Shown: in pieces, positions 1,437 through 30,623 of the stretch
How positions within the stretch are numbered: position 1 is the first letter of the stretch
Layout of the letters: each line of letters opens with the position of its first letter
Source of the DNA: Candidatus Methylomirabilota bacterium
GTDB taxonomy: Bacteria; Methylomirabilota; Methylomirabilia; Methylomirabilales; CSP1-5
Reading direction: 5' to 3'
Length of the DNA: 39,535 bases
NCBI GenBank assembly: GCA_027293415.1
Contig: JAPUFX010000131.1
Coordinates: 1-39,535 of the forward strand
The notes under the pieces: model-generated
Seen by the model: the letters and a program-made list of their open reading frames with translations, nothing else
Databases searched by the model: none
What the model was told of the DNA's origin: nothing
Program-made: the position numbers and the translations under genes

Positions 1437-1680
1437 CTGCTTTCTCCTTTAAAGAAATTGTTCTTTTCTGGCCGTTCGATTGTTCTCATGAGGTCATGAC
1501 CAACTTATCTTCCGGCCCCATGTCTGTCAAGGATACGGTTGTGCTCCAAGATGGCCGGATTCTCATGCCCTTCTGACAGAATGGCAGACCCCTATCCTTT
1601 TCTGTTCTGTATGCACATCTTCTGACGAGAGAGAGAGCGTAGAAACTGAACATATACGCTCGTGGCTGCCAAAACGACAC

Positions 1681-1696
1681 TGGCACTCTCGTTGCT
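1681..1696 (+). promoter_or_regulatory. Sigma-54 (-24/-12) promoter
   Basis: TGGCAC-N5-TTGCT matches the RpoN consensus almost completely, with GG (1682-1683) and GC (1694-1695) separated by exactly 10 bases. Transcription would start near 1707, about 57 bases before the REC-PilZ start codon. It is the main signal in the 327-base gap 1437-1763 between divergent genes. Such promoters need an AAA+ activator; none is encoded in this window. Confidence 0.7.
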
Positions 1697-1763
1697 CAGC
1701 TGTGGGTGAGGAGAGTCCGCATCGACACTTTGTTCTCTCGTCGGGTTCGCGTGAAAGGAGACC

Positions 1764-2534
1764 ATGGTCGTGCAAGCCCAACGCTCTATCTTGGTGGTTG
1801 ATGATCATCCCGGGGTTCGGGAGCACTATCGGTGTCTCTTGGAGGCGGATGGATTTCACGTGGTCGAGGCCGCCAATGGGGCCGAGGCCTTGATTTGGTT
1901 TCTCAGAGAGACGGCAGATTTGGTCATTCTTGATTTGAGAATGCCCGTGTTGGACGGTCGGAGTTTCCTCGAGTACCGGCGGCGGCTGGCAAAAATTCGG
2001 GAGGTTCCCGTCCTGGTGATAACCTGCTGGCTCGATGATTCCGGGGTCCACCAGGACCTCCTGCGGCTCGGGGCGGACCCGGTGTTGCAAAAGCCCGTGC
2101 GGTGTGAGGACCTCCTCGGCGCCGTGCAGGAGACCTTCGTCAGACCCCACCGCCCGGCCGTTGTACCTCCTGAGGCAGCCACGGAGGCCGGTAAGCGTCA
2201 GGACGGCCGGGTGGCCTTCAGCGTCCCCATTCGGATCCGCGGACGCTCGGCCGCCAATATACCCGGCAGACTCCATGACCTGAGCGCCGGGGGACTCGGT
2301 GCGTATTTTCCTGATCGGCTCCTGCACGGTGAGCCAATCACCGTGAACCTCGACATCGAGGGGGGGACCCTGGCCTTGCCGGGGTTTGTGCAGTGGGCCG
2401 ACGAAAGAAGGACGACCAGGGGATACCGCCACGGCATCCGGTTCGCCCAAAGGCAGGAGCAGACCTTCCCCTTGCACGCCTATTCATTCTTCCACGAAAT
2501 CTCGCACCCCTCTACACACCGGGCAACATCCTAA
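1764..2534 (+). CDS. Response regulator: REC receiver fused to PilZ domain
   Basis: This is a 256-residue two-domain cytoplasmic signalling protein. The receiver spans about residues 8-126, with acidic pair D13/D14, phosphoacceptor D57 in VILDLRMP, switch T87 and K110 in LQKP. The PilZ domain spans about 144-240 and carries both c-di-GMP binding motifs, RxxxR at 145-149 and DxSxxG at 172-177 (DLSAGG). It therefore probably combines a phosphorylation input with c-di-GMP binding, as in regulators of motility, exopolysaccharide or surface behaviour. No DNA-binding or catalytic output domain is present. The ATG at 1764 follows a clear GAAAGGAG ribosome site. No histidine kinase is adjacent, so it is an orphan regulator. 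A sigma-54 promoter lies upstream. It converges with the ABC permease gene, leaving a gap of 15 bases. Confidence 0.92.
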   Translation: MVVQAQRSILVVDDHPGVREHYRCLLEADGFHVVEAANGAEALIWFLRETADLVILDLRMPVLDGRSFLEYRRRLAKIREVPVLVITCWLDDSGVHQDLLRLGADPVLQKPVRCEDLLGAVQETFVRPHRPAVVPPEAATEAGKRQDGRVAFSVPIRIRGRSAANIPGRLHDLSAGGLGAYFPDRLLHGEPITVNLDIEGGTLALPGFVQWADERRTTRGYRHGIRFAQRQEQTFPLHAYSFFHEISHPSTHRATS

Positions 2535-2549
2535 GAGCCACCTCCACCG

Positions 2550-3404
2550 TCACTTGATGGCCCCGACGGTAAAACCGGCGATGAACCGGCCGACGAAGAA
2601 GTTGTACACGATGGCGATCGGGACGCTGGCGATGAAACAGCCGGCCATCAACGAACCCCAGAAGTAGACATCCCCGCGGACGAGGAACGTCGGCACACCG
2701 ACGCTGACAGTGAACTTCGATGCGGCAGTGATGAAAGTGAGGGCATAGACGAACTCCTGCATGACTAGCGTAAAACTGAAGATCACCAGGGTGAGGACCC
2801 CGGCCACGGACATGGGCATCACGACCTTCACGAAGGCCCCAAAGCGGCTCAAACCATCGATCATGGCCGCTTCCTCGAGGTCCCGGGGGATGGCCTTGAA
2901 GAATCCCATCATCAGCCAAGTACAGAAGGGGACCGTGAAGCTCGGATAGACCAGCACGAGCGACCAGAGAGAGTCCTGGAGCCCAAGATCGGCAATGACC
3001 CGAGAGAGAGGGATGAACAGGAGGGTTGGGGGGACCAGATACGTCAGGAAGATGCCGATCCCGAGCTGTTCCCCTGCCCGCCCCGTCAGCCGGGCCAGGG
3101 CGTATCCGGCCGGGATCGCCAGGAGCAGCGTGATGGCGACGACGAGCACGCCCACCCAGGCGGTGTTCCAGAGCCATTGAACATACAGCGTCTCTTCGAA
3201 GAGAAGCTTCAAGTGTTCGAGGGTGGGGGGATCGTTGAAGAGAAAGGGATTGTTATTCGGGTTGAGAAGGTCTCTGGTCTCCTTGAAGGTGGTGAGCAGC
3301 ATCCAGTAAAACGGAAAGGCGGCAAAGGTGGCGAACGCTGCCACGATACCGAAGTGCCCCCCCTTGGCTCCCCACGCCTTGAGTTTGTGCAGACCCGAAG
3401 GCAT
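2550..3404 (-). CDS. Carbohydrate ABC transporter permease, MalG/UgpE type
   Basis: A 284-residue integral inner-membrane protein with about six predicted transmembrane segments. The cytoplasmic EAA loop (EEAAMIDGLSRFGAF, around residues 190-205) docks onto the ATPase. The N-terminal helix followed by a periplasmic stretch containing FKETRDLLNPNN is typical of the second permease (MalG-like) of CUT1 sugar importers. It is the last gene of a four-gene minus-strand operon and begins one base after the stop codon of the partner permease, which implies translational coupling. The substrate cannot be told from the permease; sugars, polyols or glycerol-3-phosphate are usual for the family. Confidence 0.92.
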   Translation of the reverse strand: MPSGLHKLKAWGAKGGHFGIVAAFATFAAFPFYWMLLTTFKETRDLLNPNNNPFLFNDPPTLEHLKLLFEETLYVQWLWNTAWVGVLVVAITLLLAIPAGYALARLTGRAGEQLGIGIFLTYLVPPTLLFIPLSRVIADLGLQDSLWSLVLVYPSFTVPFCTWLMMGFFKAIPRDLEEAAMIDGLSRFGAFVKVVMPMSVAGVLTLVIFSFTLVMQEFVYALTFITAASKFTVSVGVPTFLVRGDVYFWGSLMAGCFIASVPIAIVYNFFVGRFIAGFTVGAIK

Positions 3405-10321: not shown

Positions 10322-12337
10322 GTGTTAAGAGAGTATCTTCAGCAAATCTTTAATACCTCCAAACGTGGTGACGCCCGCGAAGAGAGCTTCTATCCCCACC
10401 TGAAAGAGCTCATCGAGACCTTTGCTAAGTCCAAGGGTAAGACAGGCGTCCACATCACCACCCTTCCGAAGAAAACCGAAGCCGGAAACCCCGACTTCCG
10501 CATCTGGGACGGCAAACAGCACATCGTCGGTTACATCGAGGCCAAGAACCTCACCGAGGAAAAGCTCCAGCACGTCGAAAGTTCTGATCAACTGAAACGC
10601 TACCGTCACACGTTCCCAAATCTCATCCTGACCAACTTCTTTGAGTTCCGTCTTTATCGGAACGGAGAACGGGTGGACACCATCCAAATTGCTCGTCCAT
10701 TTATTATCCACAAACTCAAGACGGTCCCACCCGCTGAGAAGGAACAAGAATTCCTCAACCTGCTGGAAAAGTTCTTCGCTTTCTCCCTTCCTCGGACTTA
10801 TACAGCCAAGACGCTGGCCCTGGAGCTAGCGAAGCGGACCCGCTTCCTCAGAGATCAGGTCATCGCCGAAGAGTTGCGCGAGGAGTCCGAACGGGGGAGT
10901 GGGTTTATTCTGGGTTTTTACGAAGCCTTCCAGAAGTACCTCATCGGCACCCTCACCAAGGAGCAGTTCGCTGATCTCTATGCTCAGACCATCACTTACG
11001 GCCTCTTTGTCGCTAGGACCAGGGCCGAGAACAGCTTCAATCGGAAGCTGGCCTTCCACAGCATCCCCCCTACCATCGGCATCTTGAGGGATGTATTTCG
11101 CTACATCTCCCTTGAGGATCTGCCTCAGCAGATGGAGTGGATCGTGGACGACATCGCTGAAGTGCTGGCGGTCGCCGATGTGAAAAAAATTCTCCACGAG
11201 AGAAAGGGGCGCGATCCGATTGTTCACTTCTACGAGCCCTTTCTGGCTGAGTACGATCCAAAGGAAAGAGAGCGTCGGGGGGTCTACTACACGCCGGAGC
11301 CTGTGGTCTCTTATATCGTCCGCTCACTACACCTGATCCTCAAAGACGTTTTTGGTTGCCCGGACGGGTTTGCTTCAGCTTCTGTACGGGTGCTAGACCC
11401 GGCAGCGGGCACTTGCACATTCCCTGCTGAGGCAGCAGAGATGGCAGTAAGGGAGTTCACAGAAAAATATGGTGCTGGTGGCCGAAAGGGCCTAATTCGT
11501 GACCATATCCTGAAGAACTTCTACGCGTTCGAGCTCATGATGGCGCCTTATGCTGTGGGGCATTTGAAGATCGGGTTCCTCTTTGAAGAACTAGGCCACC
11601 GACTTGCAAAGGATGAGCGATTCCAGCTTTATCTGACCAACACCTTGGAAATGGAAGATCTCGAACAGACCCCACTACCAGGTATGGCCTCCCTGGCGGA
11701 GGAATCCCATTTGGCCGGAAAGGTGAAAAAGGAAACGCCAATCCTGGTGATCCTAGGGAATCCGCCGTATTCCGGGCACTCGGCAAATGTAGGACCCTGG
11801 ATCTCGGATACCATTCAAACGTACTACCAAGTGGATGGAAAGCCCCTGGGGGAAAAGAATCCCAAGTGGCTTCAGGACGATTACGTGAAGTTCATACGCT
11901 TCGCCCAGTGGAAGATCGAGCAAGCTGGTGGGGGGGTTTTAGGCTTTATCACTAACCACGGCTACCTTGACAACCCCACTTTCCGGGGGATGCGCCAGTC
12001 GCTCATGGAAAGCTTTGAGCAGATTTACGTGCTGGACCTTCACGGCAATAGTCTCAAGAAGGAACGCTGCCCGGACGGGTCCGAGGACAAGAACGTCTTC
12101 GACATCCGCCAGGGCGTCGCCATCGGGCTCTTTATCAAAAAGCCTGGCCTAGAACGGAAGGTTTGCCATGCTGATTTGTGGGGTTTACGCGACCATAAGT
12201 ATGACTGGTTAGAGGGCCGCGAGATAGACACCACCCAGTGGACACAGATCGATCCAAAATCCCCCCTCTACCTCTCTACCTCTTTGTCCCGCGGGACGAG
12301 GCCTTGTTTGACCGCTACCAAAAATATTCGAAGGTAA
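10322..12337 (+). CDS. Type ISP-like restriction-methylase, N-terminal part (frameshifted)
   Basis: The first 671-codon piece of what should be a single protein of about 1,020 residues. Early on, PDFRI followed by YIEAK (about 60-80) looks like a PD-(D/E)xK nuclease core. The adenine-methylase part has motif I as LDPAAGTCTF, where most relatives have GTGTF, and motif IV NPPY (ILGNPPYSGHS). There is no helicase block between them, unlike full-size LlaGI-type ISP enzymes. The GTG at 10322 lacks a good ribosome site. True homology stops at about 12265; the last 24 codons to the stop at 12337 are out of frame. The coding sequence resumes in another frame in the next entry. Whether any active protein is made is unclear. 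Confidence 0.8.
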   Translation: MLREYLQQIFNTSKRGDAREESFYPHLKELIETFAKSKGKTGVHITTLPKKTEAGNPDFRIWDGKQHIVGYIEAKNLTEEKLQHVESSDQLKRYRHTFPNLILTNFFEFRLYRNGERVDTIQIARPFIIHKLKTVPPAEKEQEFLNLLEKFFAFSLPRTYTAKTLALELAKRTRFLRDQVIAEELREESERGSGFILGFYEAFQKYLIGTLTKEQFADLYAQTITYGLFVARTRAENSFNRKLAFHSIPPTIGILRDVFRYISLEDLPQQMEWIVDDIAEVLAVADVKKILHERKGRDPIVHFYEPFLAEYDPKERERRGVYYTPEPVVSYIVRSLHLILKDVFGCPDGFASASVRVLDPAAGTCTFPAEAAEMAVREFTEKYGAGGRKGLIRDHILKNFYAFELMMAPYAVGHLKIGFLFEELGHRLAKDERFQLYLTNTLEMEDLEQTPLPGMASLAEESHLAGKVKKETPILVILGNPPYSGHSANVGPWISDTIQTYYQVDGKPLGEKNPKWLQDDYVKFIRFAQWKIEQAGGGVLGFITNHGYLDNPTFRGMRQSLMESFEQIYVLDLHGNSLKKERCPDGSEDKNVFDIRQGVAIGLFIKKPGLERKVCHADLWGLRDHKYDWLEGREIDTTQWTQIDPKSPLYLSTSLSRGTRPCLTATKNIRR

Positions 12338-13386
12338 CCGAGATTCTTCCAGTCAATTGCTTGGGTGTGCAAACACACAGAGACAGCTTTGTTATCGACT
12401 TCGACAGGGCGGCCTTGAAGCACCGGATCAGAATGTTTCGGGACAAAAGCCTGCCTGACGAGATTACCCGCCAAACGTTCGGCCTCAAGGATAACCGGGA
12501 CTGGAAAATGTCACCGAAGCGCAAAGCAATCATTTCTGATGAGAGGTGGGAAGAGAAGATCACCAAAATACTTTACCGCCCTTTTGATGTCCGATGGATC
12601 TTCTACCACAAGGATGCCATTGACTTCGGGCGACCCGAAGTCATGCGTCACATGCTGCATGACAACTTGGCGTTAAATACGATGCGTCAAACAAAGATGC
12701 CAGAATGGAGGCATGCGGTTGTATCTAACATGATGGCGCCTGCGGTGTACGTCGAGATCAAAGACGGTTGTAACCTTTTTCCCCTTTACCTTTGCTCCGA
12801 CGGAGACAAGAAAGACCTCTTTACCGACCCAAGTAAGGCGACAGAAAGAAAGCCTAATCTTGATCCTTCCTTACTTCGAATGCTGAAAGAGACCTATGAC
12901 CAGGAACTAACACCAGAGGAGATTTTCTTCTACATTTACGCCGTTCTCTATTCTACTAGCTACCGAACGAAATACGCCGAGTTCCTGAAGACTGATTTCC
13001 CCCGCGTGCCATTTACCCGAGGACGGGAGCTATTCACTCAGATGGCTCATCTCGGGGAGAAGCTGGTGGGTCTTCACCTTTTGAAGTTACCGGAACTTGA
13101 CCCACCGATAGCTCGCTTTCAAGGGACCGGTGATAGCAAGGTAGAGAAGCAGCTTTACAGCCGGAAGGAAAAGCGGGTTTACATCAACAAAACACAATAC
13201 TTCGAGGCGGTAGAACCAGAGGTTTGGAAGTATCAGATCGGCGGCTACCAGGTCCTTGACAAGTGGCTCAAGGATCGCAAGGGGCGCTCGCTGAGCCTGG
13301 AGGACATCCGCCACTATTGCCGCGTTGTCACCGCCCTCTCAAAAACCATAGCAATCCAAGCCGAAATCGAATCGTCTTTATCCTGA
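12238..13386 (+). CDS. Type ISP-like restriction-methylase, C-terminal part
   Basis: This frame continues the preceding methylase; the genuine coding part starts at about 12266. YLFVPRDEALFDRY, then VTEILPVNCLGVQTHRD, and later DPSLLRMLKETYDQELTPEEIFFYIYAVLYS are typical of the C-terminal specificity (target-recognition) region of type ISP-like enzymes. It ends with GGYQVLDKWLKDRKGRSLSLEDI, another hallmark of that region. It overlaps the upstream fragment by 100 bases. The GTG at 12238 is unlikely to be a natural start. It is best seen as the second half of a gene disrupted by an 8-bp duplication. Confidence 0.75.
   Translation: MDTDRSKIPPLPLYLFVPRDEALFDRYQKYSKVTEILPVNCLGVQTHRDSFVIDFDRAALKHRIRMFRDKSLPDEITRQTFGLKDNRDWKMSPKRKAIISDERWEEKITKILYRPFDVRWIFYHKDAIDFGRPEVMRHMLHDNLALNTMRQTKMPEWRHAVVSNMMAPAVYVEIKDGCNLFPLYLCSDGDKKDLFTDPSKATERKPNLDPSLLRMLKETYDQELTPEEIFFYIYAVLYSTSYRTKYAEFLKTDFPRVPFTRGRELFTQMAHLGEKLVGLHLLKLPELDPPIARFQGTGDSKVEKQLYSRKEKRVYINKTQYFEAVEPEVWKYQIGGYQVLDKWLKDRKGRSLSLEDIRHYCRVVTALSKTIAIQAEIESSLS
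12266..12281 (+). repeat. 8-bp tandem duplication causing a frame break
   Basis: CTCTACCT occurs twice in direct succession. Removing one copy joins the two reading frames exactly, giving SPLYLFVPRDEALFDRY, the expected sequence for this family. Confidence 0.85.
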
Positions 13387-29396: not shown

Positions 29397-29753
29397 CTAG
29401 CACTGTTGATCTGGAAGGAGGATTTGGCGGTACAGTGCCTCCGTAAACCCGCGGATGAGGAGGGAACCTCGGGAGATGACAGGGACGCGAAGCCTGCCAT
29501 CCCGGTGAATGAGATACTGCTGGATCTCGTCATCCGTGATCTCGGTGCTGTCGAGATCCCACTCGTGAATTGCTGATCCCACCTTGACCCAGAGCTTCTG
29601 GTGTTGCTGAACGAGATGTCGGGTTTCTTTCGTGCCCAGGGGATTCGTGGAGATCTCGTGGACCACAAAGGGGATCTGGTGCTGCGAGAGGAACTCCCTC
29701 ACCTCGACGCAGGTGGGTCACCCCTCGAGATTGTAAAGAATCGTTTCAGCCAT
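29397..29753 (-). CDS. Probable glutaredoxin/thioredoxin-like selenoprotein (UxxC)
   Basis: A 118-residue thioredoxin-fold protein, read through one in-frame TGA. The ATG at 29753 has a strong GGAGGAGG site and a promoter upstream. The frame begins M-A-E-T-I-L-Y-N-L-E-G, then TGA (29718-29720), then P-T-C-V-E-V-R-E-F-L, so the stop sits exactly at the first cysteine of a CxxC redox motif, giving U12-P-T-C15. This is the position where selenocysteine replaces cysteine in many bacterial redox selenoproteins. The remainder (IPFVVHEIST, then RVPVIS, LLIRGFTEALYRQIL) matches glutaredoxin-type folds with the cis-Pro. A SECIS-like hairpin lies at the right distance. The alternative is a nonsense mutation or sequencing error. 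A normal gene call would give only the part after the TGA. It probably catalyses thiol-disulfide exchange in the cytoplasm. Confidence 0.78.
29682..29712 (-). promoter_or_regulatory. Candidate bacterial SECIS element
   Basis: On the minus strand, CTGCG pairs with CGCAG and GAGG with CCTC, separated by a small internal loop (TC against T), around a 10-base loop TGAGGGAGTT. The loop begins 17 bases after the TGA, within the range usual for SelB-binding hairpins, and contains G at its second position. A minor alternative pairs the inner GAGG around GAGTT. Confidence 0.55.
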
Positions 29754-29784
29754 GCTACCTCCTCCATTCTTTCCGCGAATCATC

Positions 29785-29993: not shown

Positions 29994-30623
29994 TTGAAAG
30001 AGAAGGTGGAGGGAAATTCTGATGGGCGAGGTTATGATGGTCGCCCAAGAAGGTTTGCAGAAGGACCTCCTCTTTTGGTAAAGTACATCAATCACTTTGG
30101 GCCGAACCGCGGGTGGTGCGGGATTCGGCCTTACAACAGTTTCCAAGCCATGCCTGAGCTGACCGTCGACAACGCGCGCTTCCAGCACTTCCGGTCGGTC
30201 CGGTGGATTCTCCCTGGAGGTCCTTTACGAGCCGAGGCGTATCACCCCGTCGTGGAGGGTGACGAATGCCCCGGGTGTCTGGTGTGCGAGCGGACCATTG
30301 GTTGGTTCATGGAGTTTGCCCGCATCGGTCGGGAACTCGTCGGCATCAACCTCAGAGATTGTGTGCACTGGCGGAGCCTCCACGACAACCCACAACCCCT
30401 CATCGTTCCCGCCTCCAATCTGCAAGAAATCAATCACCAGACAGTCGTGCAACTTCGGGAAGCCTACTACGCGATTCCCGAAGCTGCCCGTCCCTTCCTA
30501 GAGGACGTCTGGCCCCATGACCAGGGTCTCTCCCAGAGCGACCGCTTTGAGGATCGCCTGGCCATTGTGGAGCGGATGGTCAAACTCTGGGAGGATGGCC
30601 AATACGTCGGCTGGCCCAGTTAG
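29994..30623 (+). CDS. Hypothetical protein
   Basis: An open frame of 210 codons; the true start is uncertain. A TTG at 29994 has no ribosome site, a TTG at 30075 has AGAAGGA upstream, and an ATG at 30150 begins MPELTVDNARFQHF. The part from 30150 on has convincing composition: ECPGCLVCERTIGWFMEFARIG has a CxxCxxC arrangement that might bind metal, followed by INHQTVVQLREAYYAIPEAARPFLEDVWPHD and a helical end. I do not recognise the family. Its 5' end touches the MITE-like element, which may have altered its start region. Confidence 0.6.
   Translation: MKEKVEGNSDGRGYDGRPRRFAEGPPLLVKYINHFGPNRGWCGIRPYNSFQAMPELTVDNARFQHFRSVRWILPGGPLRAEAYHPVVEGDECPGCLVCERTIGWFMEFARIGRELVGINLRDCVHWRSLHDNPQPLIVPASNLQEINHQTVVQLREAYYAIPEAARPFLEDVWPHDQGLSQSDRFEDRLAIVERMVKLWEDGQYVGWPS

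Follow-up and report, generated by a model that had tools for sequence, protein, structure and literature searches.

Does the in-frame TGA near the start of a small thioredoxin-fold gene end its translation, or is it read as selenocysteine (Sec), and if so, in what kind of protein? The question arises in the 39,535-nucleotide stretch of Candidatus Methylomirabilota DNA analysed here as a whole (the window), for which a sequence-only reading had proposed a glutaredoxin-like selenoprotein. We computed the gene, its homology, the conservation of the TGA, the Sec machinery, the constraint on a downstream hairpin, and the predicted fold, and from these we infer Sec insertion in the cell. With a probability of about 95%, the gene product is a selenoprotein of 118 residues from the ArsC/Spx branch, in which UGA12 is decoded as Sec through the hairpin and SelB.

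Gene and reading frame

The gene is read from the minus strand (Table 1), at exactly the coordinates that the sequence-only reading had given without naming a strand. As that reading had described, a strong ribosome-binding site precedes the ATG, 11 sense codons lead to the TGA, and P-T-C-V and the remainder of a full thioredoxin-fold sequence follow in frame. The frame stays open to the TAG, with this single TGA inside it. The predicted product of 118 residues reads MAETILYNLEGUPTCVEVREFLSQHQIPFVVHEISTNPLGTKETRHLVQQHQKLWVKVGSAIHEWDLDSTEITDDEIQQYLIHRDGRLRVPVISRGSLLIRGFTEALYRQILLPDQQC.

Table 1. Features of the selenoprotein gene and its putative SECIS element in the window
Feature	Coordinates	Strand	Basis
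Selenoprotein gene, 118 codons, ArsC/Spx-related UxxC protein	29397..29753	-	Frame and homologues
Ribosome-binding site GGAGGAGG, 4 bases 5' of ATG	29758..29765	-	Direct reading
Start ATG	29753-29751	-	Frame reading
In-frame TGA, codon 12, first position of UxxC, predicted Sec	29718..29720	-	TGA column in 34 genomes, Cys in 2
Codon 15 TGC, resolving Cys of the U-P-T-C motif, at least 90% conserved	29709..29711	-	Frame and alignment
SECIS hairpin 5' arm GUGAGGG, nt 16-22 after UGA	29696..29702	-	Folding and homologues
SECIS apical loop AGUUC, G second	29691..29695	-	Folding and model constraints of PMC13188914
SECIS hairpin 3' arm CUCUCGC	29684..29690	-	Folding and homologues
Stop TAG	29399-29397	-	Frame reading

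An ordinary gene caller sees a truncated ORF of 101 residues from GTG 29702, as had been anticipated, and this ORF could represent a shorter functional protein made downstream of a terminating UGA. However, 31 of 34 homologues have GCG in place of this GTG, which is therefore not a conserved start, and a protein beginning there would be without the first strand (strand 1) of the fold and without its active-site motif, so that we regard such a product as very improbable. Alternatively, a changed code or a suppressor tRNA might insert another amino acid, the frame being open under any reading of UGA as a residue. Against this, TGA ends 13 of the window's 26 other complete genes and is their commonest stop, so UGA is not reassigned; furthermore, the machinery for Sec is complete and the replacement residue in relatives is Cys (see below), which leaves recoding to another residue with next to no probability.

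Conservation of the TGA and its replacement by Cys

A profile built from the genus and run on 95 genomes of the phylum Methylomirabilota recovered full-length homologues with one internal TGA in 33 of them, Methylomirabilis-type genomes and Rokubacteria included, and a later profile added one further TGA homologue from outside the phylum (G125). The TGA column is identical in all 34 genomes, and the closest relative of the window protein, in G003, is 96% identical. No relatives were found among viral contigs or among plasmids.

In homologues that do not have the TGA, this column is Cys, in agreement with the proposal that the TGA replaces the first Cys of a CxxC motif. Such homologues are the Spx relatives of solved structure and two Rokubacteria members, G039 and G056 (loci L059 and L060), which read CDCP. 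In the latter two, the resolving Cys has changed to Ser and an extra Cys stands two residues before the Sec column (CDC); the redox pair is rebuilt, which is more than a simple substitution of Cys for Sec. Because they are nested within the Sec clade beside G065 in the tree (support 96/80), they are best read as cases in which Sec was lost to Cys, and both genomes still contain selA.

A lone TGA always permits the reading that it is a real stop, in a decaying pseudogene or through a sequencing error, and the window's genome is fragmented (221 contigs). The same TGA, however, recurs in 34 separately assembled genomes, and the TGA is therefore not a misread TGC or TGT. Purifying selection acts both before and after the TGA, with substitutions mainly at third codon positions: downstream of the TGA, dN is 0.12 and dS 0.53 between G000 and G004, and dN/dS is about 0.2–0.35 against G004 and G006. 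The hairpin and its codon choice are conserved as well (see below). A pseudogene or an error is already refuted for the family, and we give either almost no weight.

Selenocysteine machinery

The sel genes that the sequence-only reading had proposed looking for are all present in the window's genome: selA (E 1.5e-185), selB (389 bits, above cut-off), tRNA-Sec (selC; 75.9 bits, anticodon TCA), and selD, which has an in-frame TGA of its own (...GAGUACK...). SelA was found in 83 of the 95 genomes of the phylum; among the 33 TGA-bearing genomes of the phylum, no SelA match reached the cut-off used in G076, G077, and G087, of which G087 is rated complete and the other two are incomplete. Together with the TGA in 34 genomes and the Cys relatives, these genes strongly support the original suggestion that the TGA is decoded by the SelB pathway.

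Near the sel genes, the tRNA-Sec gene (L008:1501-1591, minus strand) has a phage-type integrase-like gene (1598-2662, minus strand) on its 5' side, at a distance of seven bases, and upstream of selD there is a sub-threshold match to the Rfam family RF02937, Clostridiales-2 RNA (L024:711-791, plus strand; 38 bits, cut-off 58.6, E 4.9e-6).

A conserved hairpin within the coding sequence

Downstream of the UGA, GUGAGGG-AGUUC-CUCUCGC (29702-29684) forms a hairpin of 7 bp, including one U-G and one G-U wobble, with an energy of −9.2 kcal/mol alone and a pair probability of 0.69–0.92 in a 45-nt context; in a 120-nt context the minimum-energy fold is a different one. The family conserves the element GCGAG[A/G]GA-(GUU, GUC, GGC or GGA)-UCUCUCGC at nt 16–34 after the UGA, a hairpin mostly of 8 bp (GCGAGRGA/UCUCUCGC) with a GUU-type 3-nt loop, and the hairpin is kept in 34 of 34 Sec members.

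The bSECIS model describes an apical loop of 3–9 nt on an upper stem of 4–16 bp, a G within the first two loop positions, 16–37 nt between UGA and apical loop, and a free energy of at most −7.5 kcal/mol (PMC13188914). The window element falls within each of these ranges, with a 5-nt loop on 7 bp (3 nt and 8 bp in most of the family), a G in its AGUUC loop as in the GUU, GUC, GGC, and GGA loops of the others, 22 nt from UGA to loop (23 in most homologues), and the energy of the hairpin alone given above. The hairpin fitting a bacterial SECIS that had been suggested to follow the TGA is thus real, but in another form than the one drawn: the earlier version, with a 4-bp stem and a 10-nt loop, reaches only −4.3 kcal/mol and a pair probability of 0.03, and is outcompeted by the AGUUC-loop hairpin, which is the one that the homologues conserve.

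Since the element lies within coding sequence, synonymous recoding was used as the control. The mean hairpin energy of the 34 genes is −13.1 kcal/mol, compared with −7.8 for synonymous recodings and −9.6 for the best of 1000 shuffled family means; significance is reached by the family only, the same shuffle test on the window gene alone giving p 0.10, which is not significant. The codon for Arg19 is AGR (AGG or AGA) in 33 of 34 members, against 22 of the 371 other Arg codons of the same genes (Fisher p 1e-32, a value that ignores the relatedness of the genomes), so that the hairpin, being within the coding frame, forces rare arginine codons. Leu22 is CTC in 34 of 34 and Ser23 is TCG in all 33 members that have Ser, the residue encoded by the loop varies (Phe, Ala, Ser, Asp), and the paired bases hardly vary. 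Covariation is slight because the stem sequence is nearly invariant, with one compensated pair in 23 distinct sequences, contributed by the divergent G125. In the Cys members G039 and G056, whose sequences here are GCCCGGCGCGCTCTG and GCCCGCCGGGCTCTG, both the hairpin and the AGR codon have been lost.

Folding 66 nt with the UGA included gave a z of 0.70, no support by itself. Neither Rfam SECIS_1, run over the whole genome, nor any Rfam family, run over the window, gave a match; SECIS_1 matched no control genome either, so that this negative carries no information. A genome-wide scan for the hairpin motif returned the window copy and two weak palindromes only, about the number in the reversed control.

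Relation to known families

The label "glutaredoxin-like" in the sequence-only reading describes the N-terminal part of the protein. PF00462 (glutaredoxin) matches with 37.9 bits (gathering cut-off 22.9), and the thioredoxin fold and UxxC are shared with glutaredoxin and Sec-glutaredoxin. However, this match covers residues 5–45 of 118 only, and the protein is far under bacterial glutaredoxin equivalog cut-offs (TIGR02181, glutaredoxin 3: 18.6 bits versus 90). Another family member scores 22.6 bits against PF00462, just under the cut-off. As a whole, the protein belongs to the ArsC/Spx superfamily and is not a glutaredoxin proper.

The nearest family is NF041106 (ArsC_rel_Se_1, "ArsC family (seleno)protein"; "Arsenate reductase-like protein" with UxxC in PMC13188914), which resembles the window protein in the place of the UxxC, in length, in aligning over the full length, and in having Sec members in the same phylum. 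Its model matches every one of 16 diverse members. The window protein differs, however, in its motif context (LYN..GUPTC versus YHRPGUxxC) and in scoring 57.6 bits, under the curated cut-off of 85, as does the other member whose score is shown (47.6); an NF041106-type TGA protein of the same phylum scores 137.8 bits. In the tree, the window clade (A, support 91/79) and the NF041106 clade (B, support 99/97) are separate and do not group. The window clade is a distinct branch of predicted selenoproteins, conserved across the phylum Methylomirabilota and separate from NF041106.

The closest PDB entries in both sequence and fold are Spx proteins (1z3e, 3gfk, 3l78), with ArsC-like structures also among the best matches, and Sec12 and Cys15 align with the first and second Cys of the Spx C-x-x-C switch. 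Nevertheless, the AlphaFold2 model (pLDDT 94.6) has a TM-score to Spx of only about 0.56, the score against TIGR01617 (Spx/MgsR) is 29.8 bits versus a cut-off of 75.05, the Arg directly before the cis-proline is missing, and RNA polymerase binding is not indicated. Ahead of the cis-proline, model residues 53–66 form two adjacent strands. Across 33 sequences, Y7, U12, R19, E20, L22, P38, H83, D85, G86, P91, V92, R101, G102, and Y108 are invariant, and P13, C15, K57, and R89 nearly so.

By its description, ArsC 2 (cd03032, UxxC), from the selenoproteome of the Global Ocean Sampling (PMC2398784), shares the superfamily and the UxxC with the window protein. Three Rokubacteria Spx-like proteins look closer to ArsC 2 (L070, L071, and L072 in G062, G085, and G061, at about 2,960-3,320); their in-frame TGA is the first residue of the C-x-x-C (QKPTUTSC), one of them exceeds the TIGR01617 cut-off of 75 with a score of 89.7, and they are a Sec version of the Spx switch. 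UXX-star proteins (NF041212 and relatives) likewise have Sec near the N terminus of a small redox fold, but they are short (a 70-position model), do not have the ArsC/Spx C-terminal part, and the window protein scores 26 against a cut-off of 66. A UXX-star-like selenoprotein of 78 residues (MAKQVIVYTQHGUGACDQ...) occurs within the window's genus (L073, L074, and L075 in G001, G005, and G004), and with the profiles used it was not found in the window's genome.

Predicted activity and genomic context

In the proposed mechanism, the ribosome would reach the UGA at codon 12, and the hairpin, from 16 nt downstream, would recruit SelB with Sec-tRNA-Sec. The inserted Sec would be the nucleophile of the U-P-T-C motif, attacking a disulfide or a similar substrate, and Cys15 would resolve the selenenylsulfide. 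Judging from what is known of the thioredoxin fold, the U-P-T-C centre would lie beside the cis-proline, as in thiol-disulfide oxidoreductases, and the protein is probably a selenol/thiol-disulfide oxidoreductase.

The selenoprotein could instead serve ArsC-type arsenate reduction, a role to which the matches of PF03960 (ArsC) to 10 of 16 members, and the conservation of Arg101 in all members and of Arg89 in nearly all, would be suited. Yet the scores are under the cut-offs of every matched ArsC-related model, and no arsenic-resistance gene was noticed among the conserved neighbours examined. Plain arsenate reduction is disfavoured because Val90, not Arg, precedes the cis-proline in the Spx alignment and because the motif is UxxC, whereas UxxS is listed for Sec-form ArsC (PMC13188914); we consider this role unlikely.

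Disulfide exchange is the preferred activity. In the window's genus, the neighbours (a TPP-dependent decarboxylase-like enzyme, a NUDIX protein, a TGS GTPase, and mnmG, on the opposite strand) offer no functional lead. In nine Rokubacteria genomes, a ChrR-type cupin (PF12973) lies directly downstream on the same strand, the only repeated Rokubacteria neighbour that looks informative, and it is a hint, no more, that the protein takes part in sensing or detoxifying oxidants. Instead of a general reductase, the protein might be a redox sensor based on selenium, with a Sec form of the Spx C-x-x-C switch that signals disulfide or peroxide stress to a partner such as, perhaps, the ChrR-type cupin, but this is quite improbable.

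Elsewhere in the window, a small protein with a CPGCLVC motif (30152-30623, plus strand) is encoded divergently from the selenoprotein gene; it has no Pfam match and is conserved in genomes of the same order (L076, L077, L085, L086, and L088). At 10322-13386 (plus strand), two overlapping ORFs in different frames (10322-12337 and 12238-13386) cover a large DNA-methyltransferase-like protein and look like one gene with a frameshift.

Implications

The mechanism is standard, and the protein branch appears to be unlisted. Among the 119 families and subfamilies of prokaryotic selenoproteins that a 2026 review sets out are NF041106 and a UxxS arsenate reductase (PMC13188914), and no separate entry there fits the window clade. 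As cited in that review, a Methylomirabilota genome has 63 predicted selenoproteins (Deng et al., 2026), among which the window family may be included. The distinct branch adds to the listed families and subfamilies a protein that standard gene calling would truncate or miss.

About a third of the Methylomirabilota genomes sampled have the branch; the phylum includes the genus Methylomirabilis, known for nitrite-dependent methane oxidation. In two of its Rokubacteria, the change from Sec to Cys goes together with the loss of both the hairpin and the codon constraint, a clean natural experiment on the demands that a coding sequence must satisfy to hold a bacterial SECIS.
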